Shown here in pieces: positions 4,899 to 8,771 of a DNA stretch of 39,659 nt. Within the stretch, counting starts at the first letter, position 1, and each line of letters starts with the position of its first letter. This DNA comes from Anoxybacillus tengchongensis (GTDB taxonomy: Bacteria > Bacillota > Bacilli > Bacillales > Anoxybacillaceae). Location: NCBI RefSeq assembly GCF_014201585.1, contig NZ_JACHES010000018.1, forward strand, positions 1 through 39,659. Direction: 5' to 3'. The notes beneath the pieces were generated by a model, which ran no database searches, was not told the origin of the DNA, and saw only the letters and a list, made by a program, of their open reading frames with translations. A program made the translations under genes and the position numbers.

Positions 4899-4925
4899 AT
4901 TGAATCACCTAACTTTTTTGTTGTT

Positions 4926-4954
4926 ATTATATCCTGAAAACAGTTCACAAATAA
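4926..4954 (-). promoter_or_regulatory. Probable phoU promoter
   Basis: Read on the minus strand, a perfect TATAAT (complement of 4926-4931) lies about 27 bases upstream of the phoU start codon. A weak -35-like TTATTT (complement of 4949-4954) is 17 bases further upstream. No clear tandem PhoP boxes were seen. Confidence 0.45.
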
Positions 4955-5023
4955 AGCATAAATTTTTATAGAATGAATATATGTTTTATGGTATATTGTT
5001 AGGCGTACAATTGAAGAAGAATT

Positions 5024-5110
5024 CTACGCCACTTGCGTAGGAGAGGTTCTAGAACACCCTCTATAAAAAAACTAGGGATCGCTATGTCCTTAGGGGGTAT
5101 AGCGTTTTTG
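5024..5110 (+). promoter_or_regulatory. PreQ1-I riboswitch with antiterminator/terminator switch
   Basis: The aptamer AGAGGTTCTAGAACACCCTC (5042-5061) followed by an A-rich tail to ACTA (5074) matches the preQ1 class I consensus of Bacillus queC leaders. P1 is AGAGG/CCTCT, and the tail CTA can form the pseudoknot. The expression platform is readable: CTAGGGA (5072-5078) can pair with TCCTTAG (5087-5093) as an antiterminator, while CGCTAT (5080-5085) pairs with ATAGCG (5099-5104) before TTTTTG as terminator. Ligand binding would hold the CTA in the pseudoknot and favour termination. A separate 5' hairpin, CTACGC (5024-5029) / GCGTAG (5035-5040), precedes the aptamer. Confidence 0.95.
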
Positions 5111-5157
5111 TTTTAGAACGCTCTTTCTTCTCACCATGTAAGAAAGGGGAGCGAAAG

Positions 5158-5817
5158 ATGAAAAAAGCAGTCGTTGTTTTTAGCGGCGGGCAAGATAGTA
5201 CAACGTGTTTATTTTGGGCAAAAAAACATTTTAATGAAGTCGAAGCAGTGACGTTCGATTACAACCAACGTCATCGGCTTGAAATTGACGTCGCCGCATC
5301 GATCGCTAAAGAGCTTGACGTACCACATACGGTGCTTAATATGTCGCTACTAAACCAGCTCGCGCCAAATGCGCTCACAAGAAGCGACATCGCCATTGAA
5401 CAAAAAGAGGGACAATTGCCATCCACGTTTGTCGATGGACGCAATTTATTGTTTTTATCGTTTGCGGCGGTGTTGGCGAAACAAAAAGGGGCACGCCATC
5501 TTGTAACAGGGGTGTGCGAAACGGACTTTAGCGGCTATCCAGATTGTCGCGACGTATTTATAAAATCGTTAAACGTGACGCTGAACTTAGCAATGGATTA
5601 CGAATTCGTCATTCATACGCCGCTTATGTGGTTAAATAAAGCAGAAACGTGGAAGCTTGCGGATGAGTTGGGTGCGCTAGAGTTCGTGCGCCATAAGACG
5701 CTCACGTGCTACAACGGTATCATCGCAGACGGTTGCGGTGAATGCCCGGCATGTGTGTTACGTAAGCGCGGCCTCGACCAATATATGAATGAAAAGAAAG
5801 GAGCAGATGTGCAATGA
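5158..5817 (+). CDS. queC: 7-cyano-7-deazaguanine (preQ0) synthase QueC
   Basis: QueC converts 7-carboxy-7-deazaguanine to preQ0 using ATP and ammonia. The 219-residue protein has the PP-loop [10 protein letters not shown] near the N-terminus (about residues 9-18) for ATP binding, and a C-terminal zinc site with the cysteine cluster GCGECPAC (residues about 190-197). The length is normal for the family. The ribosome-binding site AAGGGGAGCG precedes the ATG at 5158. It is the first gene of queCDEF, starts 48 bases after the riboswitch terminator and overlaps queD by four bases (ATGA), so the operon is translationally coupled and repressed by preQ1. Confidence 0.97.
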
Positions 5818-6251
5818 TCCAACAAATTTATCCGCAAGTCATTCATCCGTTTCGCTATGAGTTAAATAAAGATATGCAAATTGCGGCTGCGCACTTTATT
5901 CCGCATGAAGCGGCAGGGCAATGTGCGAACATGCACGGACATACGTATTTTATAAACATTACGGTTGCGGGTGATGAACTCGATGATTCCGGTTTTTTAA
6001 TTAACTTTCAACAGTTAAAAAAAATTGTCCACAATCGCTTTGATCATACAGTCATGAACGACCATAAAGACTTATTTAGCGATACAGAGGCAGAACATTT
6101 TCCGACAACAGAAGTCGTAGCACGTAAAATTGCTGAAATCGTGCAAGAACATTTAAATACGTTACCAAACAAACCAACGTGCGTCCAAGTGTTTGTACGA
6201 GAGTCCCCAACAAGCTATGTCGTATATCGTCCGAAAGCAGGGAAACAATAA
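5814..6251 (+). CDS. queD: 6-carboxy-5,6,7,8-tetrahydropterin synthase QueD
   Basis: QueD converts 7,8-dihydroneopterin triphosphate to 6-carboxytetrahydropterin, the first committed step toward preQ0. The 145-residue protein shows the PTPS-family zinc histidines: AAHFIPHE (about residues 24-31) and the motif CANMHGHTY (about 38-46), which supplies the catalytic cysteine and two zinc-binding histidines. [10 protein letters not shown] (about 75-84) carries the catalytic Asp-His pair, and the C-terminal [11 protein letters not shown] supplies the substrate-binding glutamate. It overlaps queC by four bases and queE by one (TAATG), consistent with one coupled operon. Confidence 0.97.
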
Positions 6252-6973
6252 TGGAGCGCATTCCGGTTATTGAAATTTTTGGCCCGACGATTCAAGGAGA
6301 AGGAATGGTCATCGGGCAAAAAACGATGTTTGTGCGCACGGCAGGATGCGACTATCGTTGTCGTTGGTGCGACTCATCGTTTACGTGGGACGGCTCAGCT
6401 AAACATGAAATCAAACAAATGACCGCTGCAGCCATTTGGCAACAGATGAAACAGCTCGGCGGCGACCGTTTCAATCATGTGACCATTTCCGGGGGCAACC
6501 CTGCGTTACTCAAAGGACTTCGTGCACTTATTTCATTATTAAAAGAACATAACATATGCATCGGTTTAGAAACACAAGGGAGCGTATGGCAAGATTGGTT
6601 TTATGACATCGACGATTTAACGATTTCACCAAAGCCGCCAAGCTCAAACATGGAAACAAACTTTGCGACGCTTGATATGATCATGAATCGATTAGCGGCG
6701 CATCGCGGACATGTAAGCTTAAAAGTCGTCGTGTTTGACGATAGTGATTTTGCTTATGCAACAATCGTACATCAACGCTATCCAAACGTTCCATTTTACG
6801 TGCAAGTCGGTAACGACGACATACATGAGGCGGATGACGTTGCGCTTCGCCTCAAACTATTGCAAAAGCTTGAATGGCTTGTTGACAAAGTAGTACAGTC
6901 TAAAGAAATGAACAACGTCCGCGTATTGCCGCAACTGCACACATTATTATGGGGCAATCGCCGCGGCGTATAA
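6251..6973 (+). CDS. queE: 7-carboxy-7-deazaguanine synthase QueE (radical SAM)
   Basis: QueE is the radical-SAM enzyme that rearranges 6-carboxytetrahydropterin to 7-carboxy-7-deazaguanine. The protein from the ATG at 6251 is 240 residues and starts [18 protein letters not shown], the normal family N-terminus; a longer frame from 6179 only adds out-of-family sequence. The cluster loop CDYRCRWCD (about residues 31-39) is the CX3CX2C motif for the [4Fe-4S] centre. The GGNP motif (about 79-82), used for SAM binding, and the downstream ISPKPPSS segment follow. The start overlaps the queD stop by one base, and queF follows after a short gap with a good ribosome-binding site. Confidence 0.96.
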
Positions 6974-6996
6974 GTATAAAGGAGGGAAACATCATC

Positions 6997-8653
6997 ATGA
7001 GAAAAGATGAAGAACTACAAGGAGTGACGCTCCTTGGCAACCAAGGAACGAAATATGTATTCGAATACAGCCCAGACATTCTTGAAGTGTTTGACAACAA
7101 ACATCCAGATCGCGACTATTTCGTCAAATTTAACTGTCCGGAGTTTACGAGCTTGTGTCAATGAGGGCACACTTCAGTGGTGACACTGTCGGCTAAACCT
7201 TGTGAATTCAGGGAAAGAGAAAAAGGGTGGAAATTATCTGAATTTTTATGTACAATGCAAACAAAGGAACGTATGTTTGTGGAGGTGTTTGTATTGTACA
7301 ACACGCCATGGAGAGATAAGGAATGGTTTACTAAGCAGTTTATTTACATTGGGAAGAGTATTCATGAGTTGTCCATTGAATTAGGTATGGATTGGTCTAG
7401 TCTTGAAAGATGGAGACAAATTCATGGACTACCTAAGCACTCGGAGAAAGAAAAGATTATTGAAGAGTATGGATTAGATGTTTTTGAAAACATAGTGAGG
7501 AGAAAGAAGAAAAGGTATTCACTTTCTAATAGAATGAAATCCGAGATAATGTATAAGGGAAAAAGTTACGAGGACATTTACGGTTTAGAGAGGGCTCAAG
7601 AAATTAAAAATAAAATTTCTGCTTCAAATAAAAATGTCAAAAGGTCGGACGAATTCAAAGAAAATCTATCCAAGAAACAAAGAGGAAAAAATAATTCGAA
7701 TTGGAAAGGCGGGTTTTATAGTCCTCATGTCTACGAACACATTGATCGTCTTAGTGTGAAAGAGTACGTTCTCGACACTTGGAATAGATATATAGTTATT
7801 GAAAAAGACTATACTTGTGAGTGCTGTGGAGTCAGATCGATCACTTGTAATGGACATCATCTATTATCTTTTACAAAAATTTTTCACGCGATTTGCTTTT
7901 ATTTGGATCAAAGGAATTGTTTAGACACAATGTCTGTCATTTCTGAAATGCATAAGTTTCACAAAGAAAACTTTCGTGAAATTTATCAATGCCTATGTTC
8001 CCCGTGTCATCGTAATATCCATCGGCAAGACAATTACTATGCGAGGATGGAACAAGAAAATCGCCTTATCTATTTACTAGAACCCTATTTCTCCAACCCT
8101 GAGCCAAGCCTTAAAGAAGAAAGGGCGATGTATGCAGCCTTGTTCTTTAAGGAAGGTGCAGAGACTATCGAAATCACTTTATCATGAAGCGAGTAAAGGT
8201 AGTGATAGAGGAAGAGAGTAGAGTACACCACGAAGTATCGTGGTGGAAGCGCAAGGGTTCTTATTCGATATCGCAGTCGAATAAGAATAAGATATAGTCC
8301 ACCTGCTTTATAAAAAGCAGTTGCCTAAAACCGGACAACCAGATTTTGCGACAATTTACATTAGCTACATTCCTGATAAAAAATGTGTTGAAAGCAAGTC
8401 GTTGAAATTATATTTATTTAGCTTCCGCAATCATGGTGATTTTCATGAAGATTGCGTCAATATTATTATGAACGATTTAATTCGCGTCATGGAACCGCGT
8501 TACATTGAAGTGTGGGGCAAATTTACACCGCGCGGCGGCATTTCGATTGACCCATATTGTAACTGGGGACGACCAGGAACGAAATATGAACAAATGGCGG
8601 AATATCGTTTATTGAACCACGATTTATATCCAGAAAAAGTGGATAATCGTTAG
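6997..8653 (+). CDS. queF: QueF (preQ0 reductase), split gene: exon 1 6997-7158, exon 2 8324-8653
   Basis: QueF reduces preQ0 to preQ1 with NADPH. Exon 1 encodes 54 residues from [17 protein letters not shown] to [10 protein letters not shown]. Exon 2 resumes with [17 protein letters not shown] and ends [12 protein letters not shown]. Joined, they give 163 residues without gap or frameshift, the normal size of the short Bacillus-type enzyme. The last codon of exon 1 is the cysteine that forms the covalent thioimide with substrate in this family, and the conserved aspartate (GQPDF) starts exon 2. The [20 protein letters not shown] segment binds NADPH and substrate. Without splicing the frame reads only Cys-Gln-stop. 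The ribosome-binding site is AAAGGAGGG at 6978-6986. Last gene of the que operon. Confidence 0.95.
7159..8323 (+). mobile_element. Group I intron (IA-type) inserted in queF
   Basis: The 1165-base insertion has assignable core helices. P1: exon TGTGT pairs with GCACA (7167-7171), giving the usual U-G pair at the 5' splice site. P10: AGG (7164-7166) pairs with exon-2 CCT. P2: CAGTG/CACTG near 7175-7188. P3: AACCTTG (7196-7202) with CAAGGGTT (8252-8259, one bulge). P7: GACTAT (8163-8168) with ATAGTC (8294-8299), inside the classic strings GCAGAGACTA and AAGATATAGTCC. P7.1: ATCACT/AGTGAT (8173-8178/8201-8206). P7.2: CACCACGA/TCGTGGTG (8226-8245). P8: CTTATTCGA/TCGAATAAG (8260-8285). P9: CTGCTT/AAGCAG (8303-8320). 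The last base is G (8323). P7.1/P7.2 indicate subgroup IA. Confidence 0.95.
7294..8187 (+). CDS. Intron-encoded HNH homing endonuclease
   Basis: Homing endonucleases cut intron-lacking alleles so that the intron is copied in. From TTG at 7294 the protein has 297 residues. This start is chosen because GGAGG (7281-7285) is eight bases upstream; a GTG at 7177 would lie inside intron helix P2. An N-terminal helix-turn-helix-like segment ([20 protein letters not shown]) comes first. A NUMOD3-type DNA-binding region (about residues 100-140, ending [10 protein letters not shown]) follows. The HNH/zinc module is CECCG (175-179), a His pair (188-189), and CSPCHRNIH (235-243). Its DNA is more AT-rich than the que genes, consistent with separate origin. 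The 3' coding end contains one strand of intron helix P7. It should be translated from unspliced RNA. Confidence 0.9.
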   Translation: MYNTPWRDKEWFTKQFIYIGKSIHELSIELGMDWSSLERWRQIHGLPKHSEKEKIIEEYGLDVFENIVRRKKKRYSLSNRMKSEIMYKGKSYEDIYGLERAQEIKNKISASNKNVKRSDEFKENLSKKQRGKNNSNWKGGFYSPHVYEHIDRLSVKEYVLDTWNRYIVIEKDYTCECCGVRSITCNGHHLLSFTKIFHAICFYLDQRNCLDTMSVISEMHKFHKENFREIYQCLCSPCHRNIHRQDNYYARMEQENRLIYLLEPYFSNPEPSLKEERAMYAALFFKEGAETIEITLS

Positions 8654-8654
8654 G

Positions 8655-8678
8655 AAGGCTGGCTTATGAGCCAGCCTT
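8655..8678 (+). terminator. Perfect 10-bp hairpin after queF
   Basis: AAGGCTGGCT (8655-8664) / AGCCAGCCTT (8669-8678) with a TATG loop begins two bases after the queF stop. It is followed by AAAAAATTC rather than a T-run, so it may be a 3'-end stabilising hairpin or an inefficient terminator of the que operon. Confidence 0.6.
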
Positions 8679-8722
8679 AAAAAATTCACAAAACACACCT
8701 AGTTTTTTTTCGTAAACGGGTA

Positions 8723-8728
8723 TATAAT
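8723..8728 (+). promoter_or_regulatory. -10 box of the oxidoreductase promoter
   Basis: A perfect TATAAT lies 44 bases before the TTG start at 8772, with a poor -35 (TAGTTT, 8700-8705). It overlaps the ATG at 8727, which rules that ATG out as the start if this promoter is used. Confidence 0.5.
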
Positions 8729-8771
8729 GACAAATTGTTACGAACCTTTTTTTCGTCTGGGGGGTCTTCAT

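Follow-up and report, generated by a model that had tools for sequence, protein, structure and literature searches.

A probable group I intron at the catalytic-cysteine codon of queF in Anoxybacillus tengchongensis and its relatives

In a stretch of 39,659 nt from Anoxybacillus tengchongensis (contig NZ_JACHES010000018.1, positions 1 to 39,659 of the forward strand, hereafter the window; the genome comprises 2.73 Mb in 29 contigs), the queF gene is split directly after the codon for its catalytic cysteine. The inserted 1165 nt are very probably a self-splicing group I intron of the IA type, acquired by queF as DNA and excised from its mRNA. A preliminary description, made from the letters of the window, had proposed a group I intron at this codon, and this was supported by the sequence and by comparison with relatives. 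The recurrence of the intron in other genomes and its HNH-type open reading frame (ORF) go beyond that description. The split gene is laid out as follows.

6997..7158, + strand: queF exon 1 (Met1-Cys54), 54 codons, ending in ...FTSLC, with TGT at 7156-7158
7159..8323, + strand: IA-like group I intron of 1165 nt, containing P7.1 and P7.2; last base G (8323)
8324..8653, + strand: queF exon 2 (Pro55-Arg163 and stop), starting with PKTGQPD

The joined exons encode 163 aa that matched the NCBIfam profile QueF-II with 187 bits (cut-off 86.9), the profile of unimodular QueF, and PDB entry 4f8b aligned with the joined protein across residues 2-163. The gene thus resumes at PKTGQPD with no residue lost, as had been proposed. 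In Bacillus subtilis QueF, the thioimide with preQ0 is formed by Cys55, and Glu97 and Cys99 are also named, in the excerpt of PMC5372742 consulted. By our own count on the alignment, these three residues correspond to positions 56, 98 and 100 of the 4f8b chain, each shifted by one. Cys54 aligned with chain position 56, that is with B. subtilis Cys55, and is therefore the catalytic cysteine, in agreement with the earlier claim that the interrupted codon specifies the thioimide-forming residue.

A search with intron DNA found the insertion in 17 of 41 genomes of the family, in every case after the identical TGT codon and with identical boundaries, which bore out the proposed ends at 7159 and 8323. 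The gene itself was detected in 41/41 family genomes (E <= 0.001). It appeared as two exon pieces only in the 17 intron genomes and as one piece without a stop in the other 24, and no second queF was found in the 17 at the same threshold. The family copies ranged from 303 to 1201 nt. A covariance model of only the P7-P9 part of the queF intron, called R1, was then run on samples of genomes that overlap one another and were scored with strict filters. It matched in 44/397 genomes of the order, 22/398 of the class and 2/398 of the phylum, one of the last being the source genome. When 30 order-level R1 loci were tested for QueF exons, eight lay in queF, six of them in the family and two in other families (G143, 377 nt; G401, 249 nt), both at the same codon as in the window; none of five new class-level loci tested in this way was in queF. 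A total of 19 queF introns, 17 in the family and two outside it, was thus compared, and the search of other queF genes suggested in the preliminary description had a positive outcome. The shortest copy, L069 of G401, scored 153 bits with R1 and had no gathering-level Rfam match. In G010, P6 of the intron is enlarged by an insert of 225 bp (L016:1673-1897); when three genomes were searched for this insert, a single complete copy was found, alongside partial matches in G010, G011 and G012.

All 19 copies share the ends expected of a group I intron: exon 1 ends in TGTGT, the intron starts with CAAT and its last base is G. Shifting the boundary one base to the right gives an identical joined sequence, but without the U at position -1 and without the terminal G. 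A secondary structure including the P3/P7 pseudoknot was drawn by hand and tested on eight copies without an intact ORF, with the exon ends included. The elements in the window are given below.

7154..7171, + strand: P1, exon TGTGT 7154-7158 with GCACA 7167-7171, U-G at the 5' splice site; identical in 8/8 aligned copies
7162..7164, + strand: TGA in the P1 loop that closes the exon 1 reading frame; 19/19 copies have a stop at this codon
7175..7188, + strand: P2, 7175-7179 with 7184-7188; one pair with two-sided change
7198..7204, + strand: P3 5' strand, pairs with 8250-8256; one pair with two-sided change
7207..7213, + strand: P4 5' strand, pairs with 8097-8103; invariant
7217..7222, + strand: P5 5' strand, pairs with 8088-8093; the ORF begins in the P5 loop; weakest of the full helices, with 89.1% of alignment cells paired
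7281..7285, + strand: Shine-Dalgarno-like GGAGG, 8 nt 5' of the TTG start; the other copies inspected lack GGAGG here
7294..8187, + strand: intron ORF, 297 aa, HNH homing-endonuclease-like, TTG start in the P5 loop (L5); spans P5', P4', P6 and the P7 5' strand into P7.1
8109..8152, + strand: P6, 8109-8116 with 8145-8152
8163..8168, + strand: P7 5' strand, pairs with 8294-8299; invariant
8177..8210, + strand: P7.1, 8177-8185 with 8202-8210; five pairs with two-sided change
8226..8245, + strand: P7.2, 8226-8233 with 8238-8245; six pairs with two-sided change
8258..8287, + strand: P8, 8258-8268 with 8277-8287; four pairs with two-sided change
8303..8320, + strand: P9, 8303-8307 with 8316-8320; two pairs with two-sided change

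Across the eight aligned copies 98.7% of the alignment cells were paired, and 24 of 78 pairs showed two-sided change; shuffling gave 10.2 such pairs on average, and sliding the structure gave 2-5. P7.1 and P7.2 between P7 and the P3 3' strand are a feature of subgroup IA, and both are present in the queF intron. The helices P1-P9, P7.1 and P7.2, most of them assigned before, could be drawn and were kept in the eight relatives. The proposed P10, read by eye, comprises 2-3 bp between CC of the 3' exon and GG of the guide, with the third pair in the window copy only.

The group I assignment also has results to answer for. The Rfam model RF00028 (Intron_gpI), the check suggested beforehand, matched the window at 7950-8320 with 38.4 bits (E 7.2e-8), short of the 50 bits it requires, and gave no match to the intron at the default threshold. 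The ORF begins in the P5 loop and splits the core, and RF00028 placed the 5' part of the model within this ORF. The model passed in 10 of the 18 other queF-intron loci (57-85.5 bits), but eight had no gathering-level match, namely L003-L008 (full or broken long ORF), L014 (broken ORF) and the shortest copy, L069. In addition, for pair types the contrast with shuffles was weaker, 43 against 37.2, and 4/500 shuffles reached the observed value. P1, P4 and P7 were invariant in the eight aligned copies, so covariation says nothing about these three helices.

A group II intron, an IStron or a plain insertion element was also considered for the queF insertion and was rejected. The insertion is large and carries an ORF, as such an element might, but the core is of group I type both by Rfam in the relatives and by covariation, the ORF has no reverse transcriptase or transposase match, and the in-frame junction is identical in 19/19 copies. 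IStrons carry an IS605-type TnpA/TnpB, and the sole ORF above 100 aa in the intron is HNH-like. We regard this origin as extremely improbable.

If the intron folds as drawn, the exon 1 end ...UGUGU would pair with the intron guide in P1, leaving a U-G wobble at the splice site, and a guanosine bound in P7 would attack 3' of the U. The freed exon would then attack 3' of the terminal G at 8323, joining TGT to CCT with no loss of a residue. On unspliced mRNA, a ribosome would read a single intron codon (Gln) and then meet a stop. The second codon past the junction is a stop in all 19 copies (TGA in 11, TAA in 7 and TAG in 1), and an early stop of this kind would keep ribosomes off the catalytic core; in the part of the review PMC3984707 available to us, such stops are viewed as a ribosome stall that aids intron folding.

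Several signs suggest that the intron is still spliced. The joined exon frames are open in 19/19 intron alleles, and the ratio of nonsynonymous to synonymous substitution rates (dN/dS) of queF had a median of 0.017 and a maximum of 0.047 in the 114 of 171 pairs with dS >0.05, the remainder having smaller or saturated dS. The last five exon bases, which form the exon side of P1, read TGTGT in 19/19 intron alleles compared to 9/24 intronless alleles, and 12 of the 15 other intronless alleles read TATGT, which would break one P1 pair. Fisher's exact test gave p = 1e-5 for this contrast, a value that is only rough because the genomes are related and the test treats them as independent.

The 297-aa ORF product is probably a homing endonuclease that would be translated from a separate TTG start within the P5 loop and would cut intronless queF near the cysteine codon. 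An intact ORF of 275-300 aa with a TTG start was present in 6/19 copies. All six proteins matched the HNH endonuclease family PHROG 8446 (best E 2.5e-12, window copy 6.1e-7), and CxxC, GHH and CxxCHxxIH motifs could be recognised by eye in the intron ORF. The dN/dS ratio of the ORF was 0.06-0.13 in the three of six pairs, among four copies, for which it was computable, with one dS near saturation. The intron protein was matched at four loci in genome contigs, from Anoxybacillus thermarum, A. ayderensis, A. mongoliensis and a metagenome-assembled genome of Anoxybacillus. Less favourable to this assignment, the six ORF proteins gave no Pfam match above cut-off and the three tested no NCBIfam match, no solved structural relative of the product was found (one match at E 0.29), and the other 13/19 copies have no intact ORF, which is broken or deleted or for which the intron is too short. 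A search of phage and plasmid collections with tblastn gave no match to the ORF at E 1e-5, and a pattern scan of IMG/VR gave no relative of it; thus, no donor was found. With blastn, the whole split queF matched 10 phage records, and the listed query ranges start or end in exons.

The frequent loss of the ORF could also suggest a remnant that is dead for splicing, with the intron decayed and queF a pseudogene in the intron-bearing genomes. The conserved and open joined frames, the helices kept through compensatory changes and the lack of a second queF in the 17 intron genomes argue against this, and we consider such a remnant very unlikely. The queF intron is real, conserved and probably active, with the caution that splicing, cleavage and homing are inferred here from comparison of sequences.

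Homing is the most likely route by which the intron entered the DNA of queF. The cores, taken as the first 60 nt plus P7-P9, were near-identical across genera, with 100% likeness for G038/G033 (distal exons 91.8%) and 99.1% for G035/G039 (distal exons 88.3%), while all aligned intron bases were 90.4% alike in both pairs. In G035/G039 the likeness of the upstream flank beyond queF dropped to 63-92%. In G038/G033 the upstream flanks were likewise 78-100% alike; therefore, this pair is weak evidence of transfer, and its shared core may stem from common descent. Across genera, the likeness of intron alleles was 4.5 points higher within 30 nt of the site than at greater distance (140 pairs), compared to -0.7 points for intronless pairs (192) and +0.7 for mixed pairs (416). 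This likeness near the site fits homing with co-conversion, without proving homing. Speaking against it, the contrast shrank at 60 nt (intron +3.8, intronless +2.7, mixed +2.5), constraint on P1 alone could raise the likeness near the site, and the comparison again treats related genomes as independent. Beside the site, the intronless alleles L032, L033, L035 and L037 (genera g1 and g2) encode PKTNQPDF, and the intronless L052 encodes PKTRQPDF, instead of PKTGQPDF. These alleles are possibly homing-resistant targets.

Relatives of the intron were sought among 27 loci with weak R1 matches. For 22 of these (all but L084, L086, L088, L089 and L099) the host gene was named by eye rather than through a family search. 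Nineteen of the 22 adjoin ribonucleotide reductase large-subunit sequence, one adjoins a small-subunit-like sequence and one recA, and one host was left unresolved. These Bacillales ribonucleotide reductase and recA introns resemble the queF intron in being matched by R1, at 29-71 bits. They differ in the host gene, in a P7-P9 part of mostly ~125-150 nt compared to 164-184 nt in the 17 family copies of the queF intron, and in a Vsr-like ORF that by eye adjoins 5/22 loci. A phage-type intron on the IMG/VR contig L105 has an exact 24-nt core stretch in common with the queF intron and shares the stretches CCTGAGCCAAGCC and GGAAGAGAGTAGAGTACA, but its host gene is DNA polymerase-like and its ORF GIY-YIG-like (both named by eye). 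On the basis of these relatives, the queF intron appears to be a branch of an already known family of phage and Bacillales type.

Two further systems were likened by description. I-PfoP3I is an HNH endonuclease encoded by an IA2 intron that interrupts the DNA polymerase gene of a cyanophage (PMC3428280, excerpt); like the queF intron, its intron is of IA type and carries an HNH ORF in a protein gene, but the host gene belongs to a phage. Flagellin group I introns of thermophilic Bacillus and Geobacillus (Hayakawa and Ishizuka, via the part of PMC3984707 at hand) were compared in the same way, not by alignment, and also have another host gene. The source genome contains two more group I introns outside the window (G000:C12:17732-18533, L101 and L102, 68.5 and 66.6 bits). 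One lies inside a flagellin gene, and the second starts at about the end of the last flagellin exon; a nearby ORF on the opposite strand is LAGLIDADG-like by eye.

Upstream of queF, the window carries a riboswitch.

5037..5081, + strand: PreQ1 riboswitch (Rfam 42.2 bits, cut-off 39), 5' of the genes that end with queF

The genes behind it, with queF last, include queC, queD and queE, named by eye from their ORFs. Scanning 4900-8760 for promoters gave 10 sites, against 9.4 expected. Elsewhere in the window, a RAGATH-18 RNA was found at 845-906 (64.8 bits, cut-off 44.9).

The riboswitch could point to the intron being a retained regulatory element, in which conditional splicing of queF, responding to GTP, temperature or translation, would tune the preQ1 output of the riboswitch-controlled genes. 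The introns that persist in 13/19 copies after loss of the ORF would fit this, and the flagellin introns of thermophilic Bacillus are termed temperature-dependent in a title cited by PMC3984707 (excerpt). However, no known ligand-binding RNA was found inside the intron at the Rfam gathering threshold, 24/41 family genomes have an intact queF, and the patchy distribution is compatible with an element that is neutral and selfish. We consider regulation an improbable role. The broader idea, that an intron family specialised on the catalytic-cysteine codon of queF was kept after the loss of its endonuclease because conditional splicing gives the final gene of the queuosine precursor operon another RNA switch besides the preQ1 riboswitch, has in our view a similarly slim chance.

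Bacterial protein genes reported to carry group I introns include those for flagellin, recA and nrdE in the consulted part of a 2014 review (PMC3984707). No group I intron in queF was found in the literature searched, among the matches listed and with most subscription journals outside the search, which agrees with the preliminary description, where none was named. The kind of element is known, and its insertion site in queF is probably new. If the intron is spliced, the gene of a tRNA-modification enzyme joins the bacterial protein genes that host group I introns. At one codon of one gene, the genomes offer a natural series from an intact endonuclease through a decaying endonuclease and a bare intron of down to 249 nt to an empty site. 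With this series it can be tested directly how homing, decay and persistence follow one another, and whether regulation can lead to the retention of a bare intron.
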